NCBI GenBank assembly: GCA_017458005.1
Contig: JAFTGH010000011.1
Span: 98,284 to 162,283 of the forward strand
Direction: 5' to 3'
Length of the DNA: 64,000 bases
DNA from: Prevotella sp.
GTDB taxonomy: Bacteria > Bacteroidota > Bacteroidia > Bacteroidales > Bacteroidaceae
Shown here: in pieces, positions 10,260 through 42,180 of the stretch
How positions within the stretch are numbered: the first letter of the stretch is position 1
Layout: each line of letters begins with the position of its first letter
The notes under the pieces: generated by a model
The model's database searches: none
The model's input: only the letters and a program-made list of their open reading frames with translations
Told to the model about the DNA's origin: nothing
Made by a program: the position numbers and the translations under genes

Positions 10260-11069
10260 TTATTGTGTGTTTTCCTGCATCTTTTTTAGAAACTCTTTAC
10301 TGTCATGTTTCCTTTTCTGCACTTTCAGATAGTAAGTGGGCATAAAATGAGTCAGGAAATACAGGTACGCTCTTATTTTGGAGAAGCCAAATACAGTCTC
10401 ATAGACATTCACATTGTATTTGATCAATGAGAATTTGTTGCTAGACACCGAATGCGTACGTTGGCGATAATAGGCAAGGGGCTCTGTCAAGCAAAAACAG
10501 ATTTGACACTCCTTGAGTATATTTAGAAACAACGCCCAGTCTTGACGCTTGCGGATGGCTGGCATGTAGAACTTGTGCCCAAGTCGCTTGATGTCATAGA
10601 TTGCTGTCAGACACCCGATTTTGTTGTCGCGCTTCATCATACTCAATGTCAAGTGTTTAGGCGAGATGTTGATACCTGTTATCTCATTGTTCTCATCACA
10701 TATCAGATAGGAGGAACTGCAAAGCGCACAATCTTTCCGTGTCATGTGGGCTATCTGCTTTTCCAGTTTCTCAGGAAACCAGCGGTCATCGCAGTCGCAA
10801 AAAGCGATGTAACGTCCTTGTGCTCTCTCGATAGACTTGTTGCGAGCGACACCAGGTCCGTAGTTGTCTTTCAGAAACTCAACCTTGACACGGGGGTCTT
10901 TTTGGGCAAACTGTTGCAAGATCTTCTGTGTCTCGTCAGACGAGCAGTCGTCCGTAATCAGTAGTTCCAGATTCGTGTATGTCTGGTTAAGCACACTCTC
11001 TATGCTGTCAGCAAGATACTTGCTGGCATTGAAGGTGGGCATGATGACCGATACTAATTCTTGCTGCAT
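10260..11069 (-). CDS. Family 2 glycosyltransferase
   Basis: The 269-residue product starts at 11069 (MQQELVSVIMPTFNASKYL). It is a GT-A fold enzyme: the VSVIMPTFNA nucleotide-sugar motif at 6-15, SVLNQTYTNLELLITDDCSSD, and a DxD-like motif in AFCDCDDRW near 92-100. It transfers one sugar of the exopolysaccharide repeat from a nucleotide donor, at the cytoplasmic face. No membrane segment is evident. It is the first gene of the downstream half of the locus, with array A and a divergent plus-strand gene upstream. Confidence 0.93.
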   Translation of the reverse strand: MQQELVSVIMPTFNASKYLADSIESVLNQTYTNLELLITDDCSSDETQKILQQFAQKDPRVKVEFLKDNYGPGVARNKSIERAQGRYIAFCDCDDRWFPEKLEKQIAHMTRKDCALCSSSYLICDENNEITGINISPKHLTLSMMKRDNKIGCLTAIYDIKRLGHKFYMPAIRKRQDWALFLNILKECQICFCLTEPLAYYRQRTHSVSSNKFSLIKYNVNVYETVFGFSKIRAYLYFLTHFMPTYYLKVQKRKHDSKEFLKKMQENTQ

Positions 11070-11204
11070 GATGACAGAGATTTGAAAATCGGCTGCAAAG
11101 GTACTCTTTTTATTTGATATCTCCAAAAGATAATGTGCCTAAACTCGAAAAAGATATAACTTATCATTTATTCGGATATTAGTAGTAAAATAGTTTTTAG
11201 CGTA

Positions 11205-11310
11205 GAAACTATCAGTTCCTGCCTAAGAAACTACCAGTTTCCTACTTGGGAACTATCAGTTTCCTGCTTGGAAACTGTCTGTTTCCGCCAAGGAAACTAT
11301 TTGGGAACTA
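11205..11310. repeat. Array A: 22-bp-period palindromic tandem repeat
   Basis: Five full units and a partial sixth begin near 11205, 11227, 11249, 11271, 11293 and 11305. Each full unit is built as GAAACT, three bases, AGTTTC, then a 7-bp linker (consensus linker C-TGCTTG), with small variations. It lies between the divergent glycosyltransferase (minus) and DUF6078-like gene (plus). The period and the 6-3-6 arm layout are the same as in array B (30341-30455), although the arm sequence is different. It is not a CRISPR: the units are contiguous and there are no unique spacers. Confidence 0.85.
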
Positions 11311-11358
11311 ACTTCAAAGAAACAGGAGGGATTATTTGGAGATGTGGGAAATAAGTAG

Positions 11359-11366
11359 TACCTTTG
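11359..11366 (+). promoter_or_regulatory. -7 element immediately before the DUF6078-like gene
   Basis: TACCTTTG at 11359-11366 ends five bases before the ATG at 11372. This is the same spacing as at the histidine phosphatase gene (6137/6143), so the transcript should start at or next to the start codon. Confidence 0.55.
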
Positions 11367-11371
11367 CAGAG

Positions 11372-11848
11372 ATGAATAAACTAACGAGTCAACCAAGAAA
11401 GGATATCGCCCCAACAGCAGAGGCAGACATCTTCCGCGAGAAGGCAGAGAACTATCTCGTATGTTTTAACAGCCAGTGTCCTCAATGTGAGAGTTGCCTG
11501 CGCTATCTGGTGGGGAAATACGCCAGTGAGCGTCCATTGGCGATGGTGTCAGTCAATCCGCGCCATCCTAAGGTGGCTACCTCTGAGTGTCCTGTGTTCC
11601 GTAATAAAGAACAGGTGATGATGAAGCGTGGCTTGATCCACTTCTATGACGACATGCCGAGCAGAAAGGAGTATCTTGTCCGTCATAGTCTTATCGCCGC
11701 CTTTGGGCGAAAAAACTATTTCGAGATGCGTAAGGGTGTGCGTCTGATCTCCCCAGAAGAGCAAGATTGCATTGCCGACACCTGTCGCCAGTTAGGCTGG
11801 ACAGGCGAACTCCATTATGACGGTGAGCAGATGGGGTACGATTGGTAA
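11372..11848 (+). CDS. DUF6078-like cysteine-rich small protein
   Basis: The 158-residue product (start MNKLTSQPRKD at 11372) has a cysteine cluster CFNSQCPQCESC at about 37-48 that could bind a metal, then SECPVF, and a conserved C-terminal half (LVRHSLIAAFGRKNYFEMRKGVRLISPEEQ). It resembles Bacteroidales proteins catalogued as DUF6078; I am only fairly sure of that number, and no function is known. No signal peptide or membrane helix is present. The last 126 bp of the gene are duplicated 1.76 kb downstream, on the far side of the ATPase gene. It is the first of three plus-strand genes inside the exopolysaccharide locus. Confidence 0.75.
   Translation: MNKLTSQPRKDIAPTAEADIFREKAENYLVCFNSQCPQCESCLRYLVGKYASERPLAMVSVNPRHPKVATSECPVFRNKEQVMMKRGLIHFYDDMPSRKEYLVRHSLIAAFGRKNYFEMRKGVRLISPEEQDCIADTCRQLGWTGELHYDGEQMGYDW
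11723..11848 (+). repeat. Direct repeat, copy 1 (3' end of the DUF6078-like gene)
   Basis: These 126 bp match 13483-13608 with 8 differences and no gaps (about 94 percent). Together the copies bracket the intergenic region and the ATPase gene. Copy 1 is the in-place end of the intact gene, ending in TAA. Confidence 0.95.
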
Positions 11849-12017
11849 GTCACTATAGCAACTTGAGTTTAAATTGGCGTTTGTTTCGCTAAAAGTCGGT
11901 AAGATAGGGTGTGTTTAGCGGAATAAACGCAATTTTGTTCCGGTTTTAACATTTGGATACTTGCTTATTCCGATAATTATTTATAACTTTGCAGACAACT
12001 TAAGAAACAAGCAGAGT

Positions 12018-13457
12018 ATGTGTACAGTTATCGGAAGAAAACAGGAGATAGCCGAACTGACTAGGCGCTATGAGAGCGGCAGGGCAGAGTTCATTGCAGT
12101 GTATGGTCGTCGTCGTGTCGGCAAGACATTCTTGATTAACGAGGTGTTGGGAGACAGTATGGTGTTCCACCACACAGGTCTCTCACCCTATGACCGTAAG
12201 CGGAAAGTCTCGCTCAAGACTCAACTTCAGAATTTCCAATTCTCCCTTATCCGTCATGGTATGGAAGGTATAGAGCAGCCTAAGTCATGGATGGAGGCTT
12301 TCTTTCTGTTAGAGCAGTTGCTTGACCGATTGGATAATGGTTCACGTCAGGTGGTGTTCATTGACGAACTGCCCTGGATGGATACGCCCCGCTCAGGTTT
12401 TCTGACGGCCCTTGAGTCTTTCTGGAACGGGTGGGGGTGTAGCCGACATAACCTTTGTTTTGTGATATGTGGCTCTGCTACATCTTGGATGCTTGACAAC
12501 ATCATCAATAATAAAGGTGGTCTCTATGGCCGACTGACCTGCGAAATGAAACTATCACCATTCACACTATTGGAGACCGAACAGTTCTTCATGAACAGAA
12601 ATATAGATATGTCACGTTACAATATCATCCAAGCCTATATGATTCTGGGGGGCATACCATTCTATCTTGACTGCTTTAATCCGTCCTATAGTTTGGCTCA
12701 GAACATTGATACACTGTTCTTTAACCGGAAGGCAAAACTCGGTGATGAATTCGACCGACTGTTTAATTCCATCTTCGATAACGCGGCCGACTGTATGAAG
12801 ATTATTCGCTGTCTTGGAAGGCGTCATGCCGGATATGGGCGTGAGATGATAGCCTGCGAGACAGGAATCAGCCCGAATGGCGATTTCACAAAACTTCTGA
12901 AGGCTCTTATTGCAAGTGACTTTGTTACTCGATATATCCCGTGGGGCAATGCTGGCAATGAGGAATATTATAAACTGTCTGACTGCTTCTGTTGGTTCTG
13001 GCTGCATTTTAAGGAGAAACTTGAAATTAGCGAGCAAGATTACTGGTCGCATCATATGAAGGAGCCTGAGATAACATCGTGGCGGGGCATAGCCTTCGAG
13101 GAGGTCTGTCTGCAGCATATCCAACAGATAAAGATGGCTTTGCAGATTGCTGGTGTTGCCTCGCAAGAGTCATCACTGATAGTTAGTGGTGATAATGACA
13201 CTGAGGGTATGCAGATAGACTTGCTGATAGACCGTGCTGACGATGTGGTGAATGTCTGTGAGATGAAGTTTTCTAAATCGAATTACGTCATCACAAAGTC
13301 ATACGCAGATAAGTTAATGAGACATATCGACCAACTGGAGCGCACTCAACCAAATAAGAAATACCATCTGACTTTTGTTACGGTCAATCCTATAGAGCGT
13401 AACGCTTACTCTGATATTGTAAAGTCATCCATTACGTCGGATGAACTTTTTAGATAA
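12018..13457 (+). CDS. AAA-type ATPase of the archaeal-ATPase / DUF234 type
   Basis: The start at 12018 (MCTVIGRKQEIAELTRRYESG) follows a TAACTTTG element at 11984-11991. The 479-residue product has the family N-terminus FIAVYGRRRVGKTFLI (Walker A, about 35-44), VVFIDELPWMD as Walker B (about 115), and ICGSATSWM as sensor. A winged-helix-like middle (KIIRCLGRRHAGYGREMIACETGI) is followed by a DUF234-like nuclease-fold C-terminus with EVCLQHI and CEMKFSKSNYVI (restriction-endonuclease-like E-x-K). Such proteins are common and mobile in Bacteroidales; the function is not established. The gene is bracketed by a 126-bp direct repeat. Upstream, TTATTCCG/CGGAATAA elements (11919, 11935, 11965) may be operators. 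Confidence 0.88.
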   Translation: MCTVIGRKQEIAELTRRYESGRAEFIAVYGRRRVGKTFLINEVLGDSMVFHHTGLSPYDRKRKVSLKTQLQNFQFSLIRHGMEGIEQPKSWMEAFFLLEQLLDRLDNGSRQVVFIDELPWMDTPRSGFLTALESFWNGWGCSRHNLCFVICGSATSWMLDNIINNKGGLYGRLTCEMKLSPFTLLETEQFFMNRNIDMSRYNIIQAYMILGGIPFYLDCFNPSYSLAQNIDTLFFNRKAKLGDEFDRLFNSIFDNAADCMKIIRCLGRRHAGYGREMIACETGISPNGDFTKLLKALIASDFVTRYIPWGNAGNEEYYKLSDCFCWFWLHFKEKLEISEQDYWSHHMKEPEITSWRGIAFEEVCLQHIQQIKMALQIAGVASQESSLIVSGDNDTEGMQIDLLIDRADDVVNVCEMKFSKSNYVITKSYADKLMRHIDQLERTQPNKKYHLTFVTVNPIERNAYSDIVKSSITSDELFR

Positions 13458-13482
13458 ATCTGCCATGTGGCTCAGAGAGTGA

Positions 13483-13608
13483 GAGATGCGTAAGGGGGTG
13501 CGTCTGATTTCCCCAGAAGAGCAAGATTGCATTGCCGACACTTGTCGCCAGTTAGGTTGGGCAGGCGAACTTCATTATGACGGTGAGCAAATGGGGTACG
13601 ATTGGTAG
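13483..13608 (+). pseudogene. Duplicated 3' fragment of the DUF6078-like gene (direct repeat, copy 2)
   Basis: The fragment encodes the last 41 residues of the DUF6078-like protein (from EMRKGVRLISPEEQ to YDW) with one amino-acid change (Thr to Ala). Six changes are synonymous and one alters the stop (TAA to TAG). It has no start codon or promoter of its own. The mainly synonymous differences mean the copy came from a working allele of another lineage rather than decaying in place, which suggests the ATPase arrived by recombination and brought its own flank. Confidence 0.9.
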
Positions 13609-30340: not shown

Positions 30341-30455
30341 GAAATCATTCCCACGATGGGAATGCATCTTTCCCAACGTGGGAATGTTCGATTCCCATCA
30401 TGGGAATGTATATACTCCCATCAAGGGAATAAGTCGTTCCCAACATGGGAATGAT
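30341..30455. repeat. Array B: 22-bp-period palindromic tandem repeat
   Basis: Five units, each TTCCCA, three variable bases, TGGGAA and a 7-bp linker. The right arms begin at about 30358, 30380, 30402, 30425 and 30447. The middle triplets vary (CGA, ACG, TCA, TCA, ACA) while the arms are kept; unit 4 has a damaged arm. The array lies between the toxin gene and the operator of the 30184 unit. Period and layout equal array A. Confidence 0.9.
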
Positions 30456-30753: not shown

Positions 30754-31056
30754 TTATCGTTTCTTGTATTTCTTGCTGAAAAGGTCGGAGTGAGTTCCTG
30801 TATTCAAAAGCACAAGGACAAGTTCTTGATTATGTATTTCCCAAACAAGCAACCAATCGGGTTTGATATGACACTCCCATTGCCCCTTGCGGTCGCCAGT
30901 CAACGTATGGGCTTGATACTTTTCTTCGAGTTGCTCTCCGTTGAGTAATTTTCCCACTACCGTCCACAACTCATCCATCGGCAAACCGCGACGCTTGCAG
31001 AGTCTCATGTTCTGCTTGCACTCTCCAGTGATACGAAGTTTGTATTTCGTGATCAT
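30754..31056 (-). CDS. RelE/YafQ-type toxin (predicted mRNA interferase)
   Basis: The 100-residue product has the fold signature YKLRITGECKQNMRLCKRRG at the start, a central LLNGEQLEEKYQAHTL, and DRKGQWECHIKPDWLLVWEI near 75. This resembles YafQ, with the C-terminal H-x-D-L-F ending (HSDLF) typical of that subgroup. It would cleave ribosome-bound mRNA when free of antitoxin. The start overlaps the antitoxin stop by 4 bp. Confidence 0.88.
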   Translation of the reverse strand: MITKYKLRITGECKQNMRLCKRRGLPMDELWTVVGKLLNGEQLEEKYQAHTLTGDRKGQWECHIKPDWLLVWEIHNQELVLVLLNTGTHSDLFSKKYKKR

Positions 31057-41474: not shown

Positions 41475-41921
41475 CTAGTAAAGGAAGCCAAAAGCCCAGA
41501 GAGGGATCTTTCTTAGATATGCTGATTCAATGTCATCCGCTGCTATGAACGAATGCTCCTGACCAGCCAATTGCCCATACCCCTTATCGGCGCCCCCCAC
41601 TTCTATCACTGTGTCGTTATCAATACGGAAATCTCCACGCTTGTAGCCCGCATATTCAATTGTATGACCTGCGGAAGCCAATTGGTTTGCAATGAAAGTC
41701 TCTCTGACCGTACCTGTCTCTGGTTTCTGTGGGCATAGTGCATACAGTAGATTCGTGTTGTCAAGATAAATCTTGTCTGGTTTCTGAAGATCGGTAATGT
41801 TCTTTTTAAAATATTTGTTTCTCACATGTTCTTCTAAAAAACACTTTTGACGGGTATTTGCTTTTTGCAAAATACATTTTCCATGCGTAAGTGCTCTTTG
41901 TAAAAAGCATTTTCGGTACAA
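41475..41921 (-). pseudogene. Truncated DUF4143 ATPase (C-terminal domain only)
   Basis: The 148-codon frame ends with a recognisable DUF4143 C-terminus: KPDKIYLDNTNLLYAL, ETGTVRETFIANQLASAG, GDFRIDNDTVIEVGG, SFIAADDIESAYLRKIPLWAFGFLY. The N-terminal AAA domain with the P-loop is missing. In its place are three 11-residue near-repeats (KCFLQRALTHG, KCILQKANTRQ, KCFLEEHVRNK) that correspond to 33-bp operator-like DNA repeats. It looks like an internal deletion that joined the operator region to the 3' part of the gene. A -7-like element (CAAAAATA, 41919-41926) from the 98-bp repeat could still transcribe it. Confidence 0.85.
41826..41909. repeat. 33-bp-phased palindromic elements, three copies, in the truncated ATPase gene
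   Basis: TGCTCTTTGTAAAAAGCA (41892-41909) is a nearly perfect palindrome. Related 18-bp elements begin at 41859 and about 41826, so the spacing is 33 bp each time. The intact DUF4143 gene at 42193-43533 has three palindromes with the same 33-bp spacing but another sequence. Confidence 0.8.
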
Positions 41922-42008: not shown

Positions 42009-42091
42009 AGTGCCATTCCAATCGAATAAAAGTGCCTATGTTTTCGATGTAAAGTGCCGTTGTAATCAATCGTTGGAAGCATCCCCTTTAT

Positions 42092-42180
42092 CGGTTGACT
42101 CCAGTCAACCGATCTGCCGACTCCAGTCAACCGATTGGTTGACTCCATGTCAACCGACCGTTTGACTCTAAGTCGGCAGG
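42092..42180. repeat. Array C: 22-bp-period palindromic tandem repeat
   Basis: Four units, each GGTTGACT, 2-5 bases, GTCAACC-like, plus a short linker (GATC, GATT, GACC). The GACT cores begin at 42097, 42119, 42141 and 42164, giving 22-23 bp spacing. Units 1 to 3 keep long arms, while unit 4 is shorter. It ends 12 bp before the stop of the DUF4143 ATPase gene. The sequence is unrelated to arrays A and B but the period is the same. Confidence 0.87.

Follow-up and report, generated by a model that had tools for sequence, protein, structure and literature searches.

The window analysed here, 64,000 nucleotides (nt) of Prevotella sp. contig JAFTGH010000011.1 (assembly GCA_017458005.1), contains a short palindromic tandem array, array A, beside a gene of the protein family DUF6078 (PF19555), and arrays of this kind form a genus-wide class that is tightly linked to DUF6078. 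Direct reading and Tandem Repeats Finder (TRF; period 22 at 11192-11300 and period 44 at 11205-11300) show array A to be some five palindromic units of 22 bp followed by a tail, GGAAACTATTTGGGAACT, that runs to 11309. Both bear out the initial annotation of five 6-N3-6 units with arms GAAACT/AGTTTC and a 7-bp linker, repeated every 22 bp, with one mismatch in several of the arms. In the other phase the array reads TTYCC-N5-GGRAA, a core that it has in common with array B, one of two further arrays in the window (Table 1).

The array sits directly before the DUF6078 promoter instead of past the stop codon of that gene, and it falls between two divergent promoters and outside both, as judged by their motifs; its other neighbour is a glycosyltransferase family 2 gene. 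Both promoters are presumed from the Bacteroidetes-type consensus. The promoter of the DUF6078 gene is identical in genome G381, which also retains array A without insertion or deletion (indel), at 85% identity versus 94% in the flanking genes. We propose, with a probability of roughly one half, that array A and DUF6078 form a protein-array pair, in which the protein would act on its own array as DNA and on copies of it in trans.

Table 1. Positions in the window of arrays A, B and C, the half-sites of array A, and its flanking genes and promoters.
Feature	Position	Strand	Details
Array A	11205..11309		palindromic, period 22
Array A half-sites, first part	11205, 11214, 11227, 11236, 11249		GAAACT, AGTTCC, GAAACT, AGTTTC, GGAACT
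Array A half-sites, second part	11258, 11271, 11293, 11304		AGTTTC, GAAACT, GAAACT, GGAACT
DUF6078 (PF19555) gene, neighbour of array A, proposed partner	11372..11848	+	E 1.3e-34
Presumed Bacteroidetes-type promoter of DUF6078 gene	11335..11366	+	TTTG 11335-11338, 20 nt, TACCTTTG 11359-11366
Presumed divergent promoter of glycosyltransferase gene	11096..11126	-	TTG 11126-11124, 20 nt, TACCTTTG 11103-11096
Glycosyltransferase family 2 gene, other neighbour of array A	10260..11069	-	
Second copy of DUF6078 gene 3' end	13483..13605	+	amino acids 117-158, 95% identical; beyond ATPase gene
Array B	30347..30453		TTCCC-N5-GGGAA, period 22 (TRF 30347-30453)
Array C	42060..42180		conserved leader from 42060, array 42090-42180; TRF 42090-42168, period 22

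Arrays at DUF6078 loci

Arrays were detected by a combined score of tandem self-similarity (54 bp) and palindromy (32 pairs), with periods of 12-70 treated alike and low-complexity matches excluded; palindrome-only detectors were rejected as too noisy. In 66 named loci picked by protein alone from Prevotella, Segatella, Hallella, Leyella, Marseilla, Paraprevotella, Bacteroides and Parabacteroides, the middle of an array lies 0-250 nt past the DUF6078 stop codon in 56. The 57 arrays past these stops have periods of 22 (50 arrays), 21 (2), 44 (3) and 66 (2). In the rest of the same 336 kb there are 11 further arrays, of which one has period 21 and one 66 but none has 22, and shuffled sequence contains no array. 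Several of the ten array-less loci show units by eye.

Another set, which shares a few loci with the 66 (e.g., L157 and L257) and is not independent of them, comprises the 30 loci, the window's own among them, with the best homologues across 60 genomes of the genus. A period-22 palindromic array is present in 18 of these loci; under looser thresholds 14 have an array at most 150 nt downstream of the gene, with period 22 in 13 cases and 44 in one, and in the window and two other loci an array lies at most 100 nt away on the 5' side. A separate tblastn set from phage and plasmid records has an array at all nine DUF6078 loci (eight of period 22, one of 44), beginning between 14 nt before and 51 nt past the stop codon; one of these loci is on plasmid pTS1 of Treponema saccharophilum. 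At control glycosidase loci an array was found within 250 nt of the match ends in 0 of 28 cases. It should be noted that the glycosidase and other control loci still hold 8 period-22 arrays in 197 kb.

The frequent position after a stop codon, together with the palindromic units, would also be expected if the units act as RNA hairpins, that is, as terminators, stabilisers or protein sites in mRNA. This we consider very improbable, given that array A lies outside both neighbouring transcripts (judged by promoter motifs), that most half-site positions in array families A and C vary independently and not in compensating pairs, and that an Rfam search of 11000-11500 gave no match at the gathering score (one of 17.3 bits versus 34).

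Genes other than DUF6078 also recur beside arrays. VapE-like genes (PF05272) follow DUF6078 and its array in 16 of 66 and 12 of 32 loci, four of the 16 having been search seeds, and both VapE genes found in the sampled sequence lie at most 352 nt from an array, one of them (L208) a seed. Iterons of plasmid and phage-satellite origins are sites repeated in tandem at intervals of some two helical turns and may adjoin a replication gene, and the arrays resemble them in this arrangement and in the VapE gene that adjoins some. The arrays could accordingly be replication-origin iterons for a VapE-like helicase with a PrimPol-like N-terminus, encoded by small mobile elements, with lone arrays as remnants. 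We find this hard to credit, since in the flanks compared a VapE gene is absent from the majority of DUF6078 loci and from almost every lone array. Unlike iterons, the arrays are chromosomal, belong to many families per genome, have palindromic units and mostly lack a nearby replication gene.

Four HU-HIG-type genes occur in 1.34 Mb of samples, each 67-78 nt from an array that lies on the 5' side of three and on the 3' side of the fourth (L206), with a second array further upstream. PF18291 matched in the two HU-HIG-type genes scanned, and 57 control loci yielded neither HU-HIG nor VapE genes. The link between HU-HIG genes and arrays is weak, because three of the four genes were search seeds chosen beside arrays and only L210 was unseeded.

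Two side observations concern the surroundings of DUF6078 genes. At four loci (L232, L238, L240 and L241) the gene downstream of DUF6078 and its array encodes a common motif, KQLLSYAIGC.MGR.SLD, which presumably recalls methyltransferases of the bacteriophage exclusion (BREX) type; the L240 gene has no Pfam match. In the window, within 11961-13605, an AAA ATPase gene (PADLOC PDC-S27, E 5e-188) separates the DUF6078 gene from the second copy of its 3' end, as if an insertion or duplication had occurred beside it.

Period and dispersed families

A period locked at 22, with free letters, characterises the arrays across the genus. In 17 genus genomes (1.18 Mb sampled, window excluded) 66 arrays were found, of which 40 have period 22, five period 44, two period 66 and two period 21; periods of 22, 44 or 66 thus account for 47 of the 66, and the letters differ widely between array families. 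Shuffles of the same stretches gave 0.0 arrays (0.33 in one group at slightly different settings), which upholds the earlier expectation that period-22 palindrome arrays exceed those of shuffled sequence. The window's own genome (window plus 400 kb) has 18 arrays, 11 of them with period 22, and the other genus genomes (780 kb) have 52, 32 of them with period 22. Density varies between genomes; Segatella baroniae B14, for example, has six arrays in 400 kb, two of period 22. From another genus of the same family, G118 (100 kb) has four arrays with periods of 22, 22, 33 and 44. In other families of the order, 13 of 15 stretches (260 kb; two were dropped for too little usable sequence) yielded four arrays with periods of 15, 44, 51 and 60. 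In G016, two adjacent palindromic arrays with different arms and periods of about 41 and 40 bp (L124:5682-6092) are possibly a double-length relative of the 22-bp class.

Each of the arrays A, B and C belongs to a dispersed family and is no one-off. In the window the combined detector finds these three and one period-33 stretch at 41829, and none in shuffles. The initial annotation had ascribed one geometry to all three: the period of 22 is indeed shared, while the 6-3-6 arms are not, array B having an N5 loop and array C arms of about 9 bp around 2 bp. Dispersed families, the core common to A and B, their facing each other at one orthologous site (described below) and the tie to DUF6078 go beyond that annotation. 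The own genome, G000, is 92% complete (3.05 Mb in 66 contigs); in it family A occupies 7 places, family B 10 and family C 25, after overlapping matches on the two strands were merged. The 25 family C copies are near-identical and have a conserved leader, which in L031 itself repeats at 22 bp (by eye). Among the neighbours of families A-C, only the L003/L011 protein pair and the DUF6078 pair C9/C50 recur, besides reading frames that run through arrays.

Arrays also change in length: one C array (L025/L353, G000 versus G381) differs by exactly one 22-bp unit, and another has a 22-column gap and 8 further indel columns between the same genomes. These differences, and the near-identity that units within one array often show, are what would be expected if chance slippage at palindromes makes and homogenises the arrays, leaving spacing and gene linkage without function. 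The sharp period of 22 over unrelated letters and the linkage to a single gene family, DUF6078, speak against slippage, as do the non-palindromic tandem repeats, which have no period 22 in the own genome and four cases in other genomes, and we regard this as the least probable explanation.

A further alternative is that the arrays serve as multi-site operators of the ordinary kind, or as architectural sites, with DUF6078 and other DNA-binding proteins as regulators and no mobilisation. It is suggested by the place of array A relative to its two promoters and by the arrays just 5' of three HU-HIG genes. In addition, promoter motifs at most 200 nt away read away from the array in 34 of 147 cases and into it in 4, in a count that combines three partly overlapping sets and includes orthologues twice. 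This bias may merely reflect avoidance of leaders, however, and 25 near-identical C copies with a common leader look more like spreading than tuned regulation. The same holds for arrays inside coding linkers and in any gene orientation: in a sample of 58 arrays, 27 lie between tandem genes, 13 between convergent and 10 between divergent genes, 5 within an open reading frame and 3 at edges. Regulation of this kind is possible, but we think it distinctly less probable than the protein-array pair.

In some family A copies (e.g., L002) inverted ends, AGTTCCC..ATAGTTT / AAACTAT..GGGAACT, are common to the copies by eye. Arrays of the B type also sit in one linker of a putative GH106-like (glycoside hydrolase) gene, in four species and not in the other five of 9 aligned orthologues (21 loci had been entered). 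Such observations would fit selfish elements resembling miniature inverted-repeat transposable elements (MITEs), moved by another transposase, with DUF6078, VapE and HU-HIG genes as passengers or targets. A precedent is BrickBuilt, a MITE of Porphyromonas gingivalis that is dispersed between genes and carries tandem 23-nt repeats; 22- and 41-nt repeats are also mentioned in its description (PMC4596501). The arrays are like BrickBuilt in belonging to Bacteroidales and in having short tandem repeats in a dispersed element. BrickBuilt differs in its leader and tail, its ends like those of the insertion sequence (IS) IS5 and its up to about 23 repeats, whereas the arrays are short, fall into many letter families and are linked to DUF6078; the units of the arrays are palindromic. 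Random insertion would not predict that arrays keep to one place, just 3' of members of a single gene family, in different phyla, and no recurrent transposase was seen beside families A-C among the flanks compared. We judge a MITE-like origin unlikely. As to the hallmarks of a MITE, a target duplication and terminal inverted repeats in common with a full-length IS, the inverted ends of some family A copies were seen by eye, as above, and the compared sequence contained no empty site, no IS search having been made.

Two side observations concern the surroundings of copies in G000. Arrays L019/L037 and L006 lie in coding regions between domains with the frame open, and are thus translated as linkers. 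At two contig ends (L026 and L028) the same sequence, which starts with GTAGTTTAACGATTTTAGTTGACTAC and may be an inserted mobile element, follows family C arrays.

Letters, proteins and change in place

The similarity of array letters correlates with the similarity of the DUF6078 proteins (0.28, Mantel p<=0.001). This analysis covered 61 of the 66 loci, five with short flanks having been dropped, and left out 576 of 1830 pairs as near-orthologous. For comparison, the 5' flank gave 0.04 (p=0.28), and a weak 0.10 (p=0.03) came from the stretch 220-420 nt downstream. The same correspondence is visible within genomes. For instance, in the own genome an A-type array precedes the DUF6078 gene of the window and a B-type array follows the C9 paralogue, and in S. 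baroniae one lone array has the same letters as the DUF6078 array of that genome.

The comparison of the same locus between strains, which had been proposed as a check, yielded one case in which letters changed and spacing was kept. The A-type array L006, inside a gene with THUMP-like and PG_1098 domains, aligns without gaps across the whole array with B-type units in G035 (L388), and the tail is kept. G035 has a single DUF6078 hit, of the B kind and 77% identical to the C9 protein, and no A-type array was found in it at E<=0.001 (11 of 49 candidates scored). In G035, an array of other letters also faces the C array of L025.

Proposed mechanism and known systems

In the pair that we propose, DUF6078 would act on the array as double-stranded DNA, with one dimer per unit on its two half-sites and successive dimers 22 bp, or about two turns, apart. 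Protein contacts would hold the spacing, letters would drift together with DUF6078 specificity, and units would be gained and lost in 22-bp steps. Scattered arrays would arise through a copying process served by DUF6078, in a layout like that of repetitive extragenic palindromes (REPs) and their associated transposases (RAYTs). The arrays, their period, the gene linkage, the correlation of letters with protein, one change of letters in place and one difference of a 22-bp unit are directly observed; we infer binding, dimers, copying and any effect on neighbouring promoters. A stronger version, in which DUF6078 is an array writer that copies or converts 22-bp units at existing arrays genome-wide, so that letters switch while the protein-set spacing stays and further partners (HU-HIG and VapE candidates) serve other letter families, seems to us rather unlikely.

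Several results weigh against the proposed pair. Selection on helical phase, suggested earlier from the spacing of two turns, finds no support: between two close species the arms are no less diverged than the rest, and two turns of B-DNA are nearer 21 than 22 bp. No clean empty site appeared when the flanks of 23 G381 and 52 G000 arrays (overlapping loci included) were compared, so that the GH gene with arrays in some orthologues is the nearest substitute. Genomes G016 and G010 (99% complete) have six and five period-22-type arrays in 100 and 80 kb, and a search with the window protein found no DUF6078 in either. Families C-H have no known partner in G000, and the fold matches of DUF6078, which was also compared with the helix-turn-helix fold of XRE/lambda-repressor proteins, are weak.

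As regards the protein, the DUF6078 alignment has four conserved Cys. The best PDB sequence relative has E 0.27, neither NCBIfam nor PADLOC gave a match, and no occurrence in IMG/VR contigs was confirmed. In the fold searches, matches to PII, Cas2-like and ClpS-like folds were rejected as relatives (Z <5).

Among known systems, the layout appears most like that of REP or REPIN sequences and RAYT (REPtrons), in which, according to two papers, a gene has its own adjacent palindromic repeats with cognate copies scattered between genes, and letters co-diverge with the protein (PMC3116915, PMC3733652). Both traits are present here, as palindromic repeats beside the DUF6078 gene (in 56 of 66 and nine of nine loci) and as scattered cognate copies (families A and B in G000 and the lone array of S. 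baroniae). Unlike REPtrons, the protein is DUF6078, without an invariant His among 64 aligned sequences, and the repeats are several-unit 22-bp arrays versus the single or paired 20-40-bp hairpins with a GTAG tag. The arrays would thus stand outside the RAYT/REP class, as no RAYT was found: the Y1 (HUH) transposase PF01797 had 0 matches in G000 (92% complete), and 5 of 14 control genomes match. A clustered regularly interspaced short palindromic repeat (CRISPR) array, which also has short repeats at regular spacing, was rejected, since there are no unique spacers and the whole 22-bp unit repeats and recurs at other loci.

We call the array/DUF6078 class new because these features are not combined in any known family and because no paper on the arrays, DUF6078 or such cassettes was found in the literature searched, outside which most subscription papers fall; neither 'DUF6078' nor 'PF19555' is named in any paper found there. 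It could still be an unusual set of operators. DNA of fixed geometry and free letters that goes with a protein family as yet unstudied, in Bacteroidales and a single Treponema, is a candidate for a new protein-DNA pair. After RAYT/REP, it would be a second instance in which a host gene has palindromes of its own dispersed through the genome, and it provides a first hypothesis of function for DUF6078. The pairing may explain the tens of such arrays per megabase in many Prevotella-like genomes. Should arrays switch in place, the many sites of a genome would be kept matched to a single protein in a novel manner. Lastly, close to array B, at 30754-31056, lies a YafQ-type toxin gene of a type II toxin-antitoxin pair.
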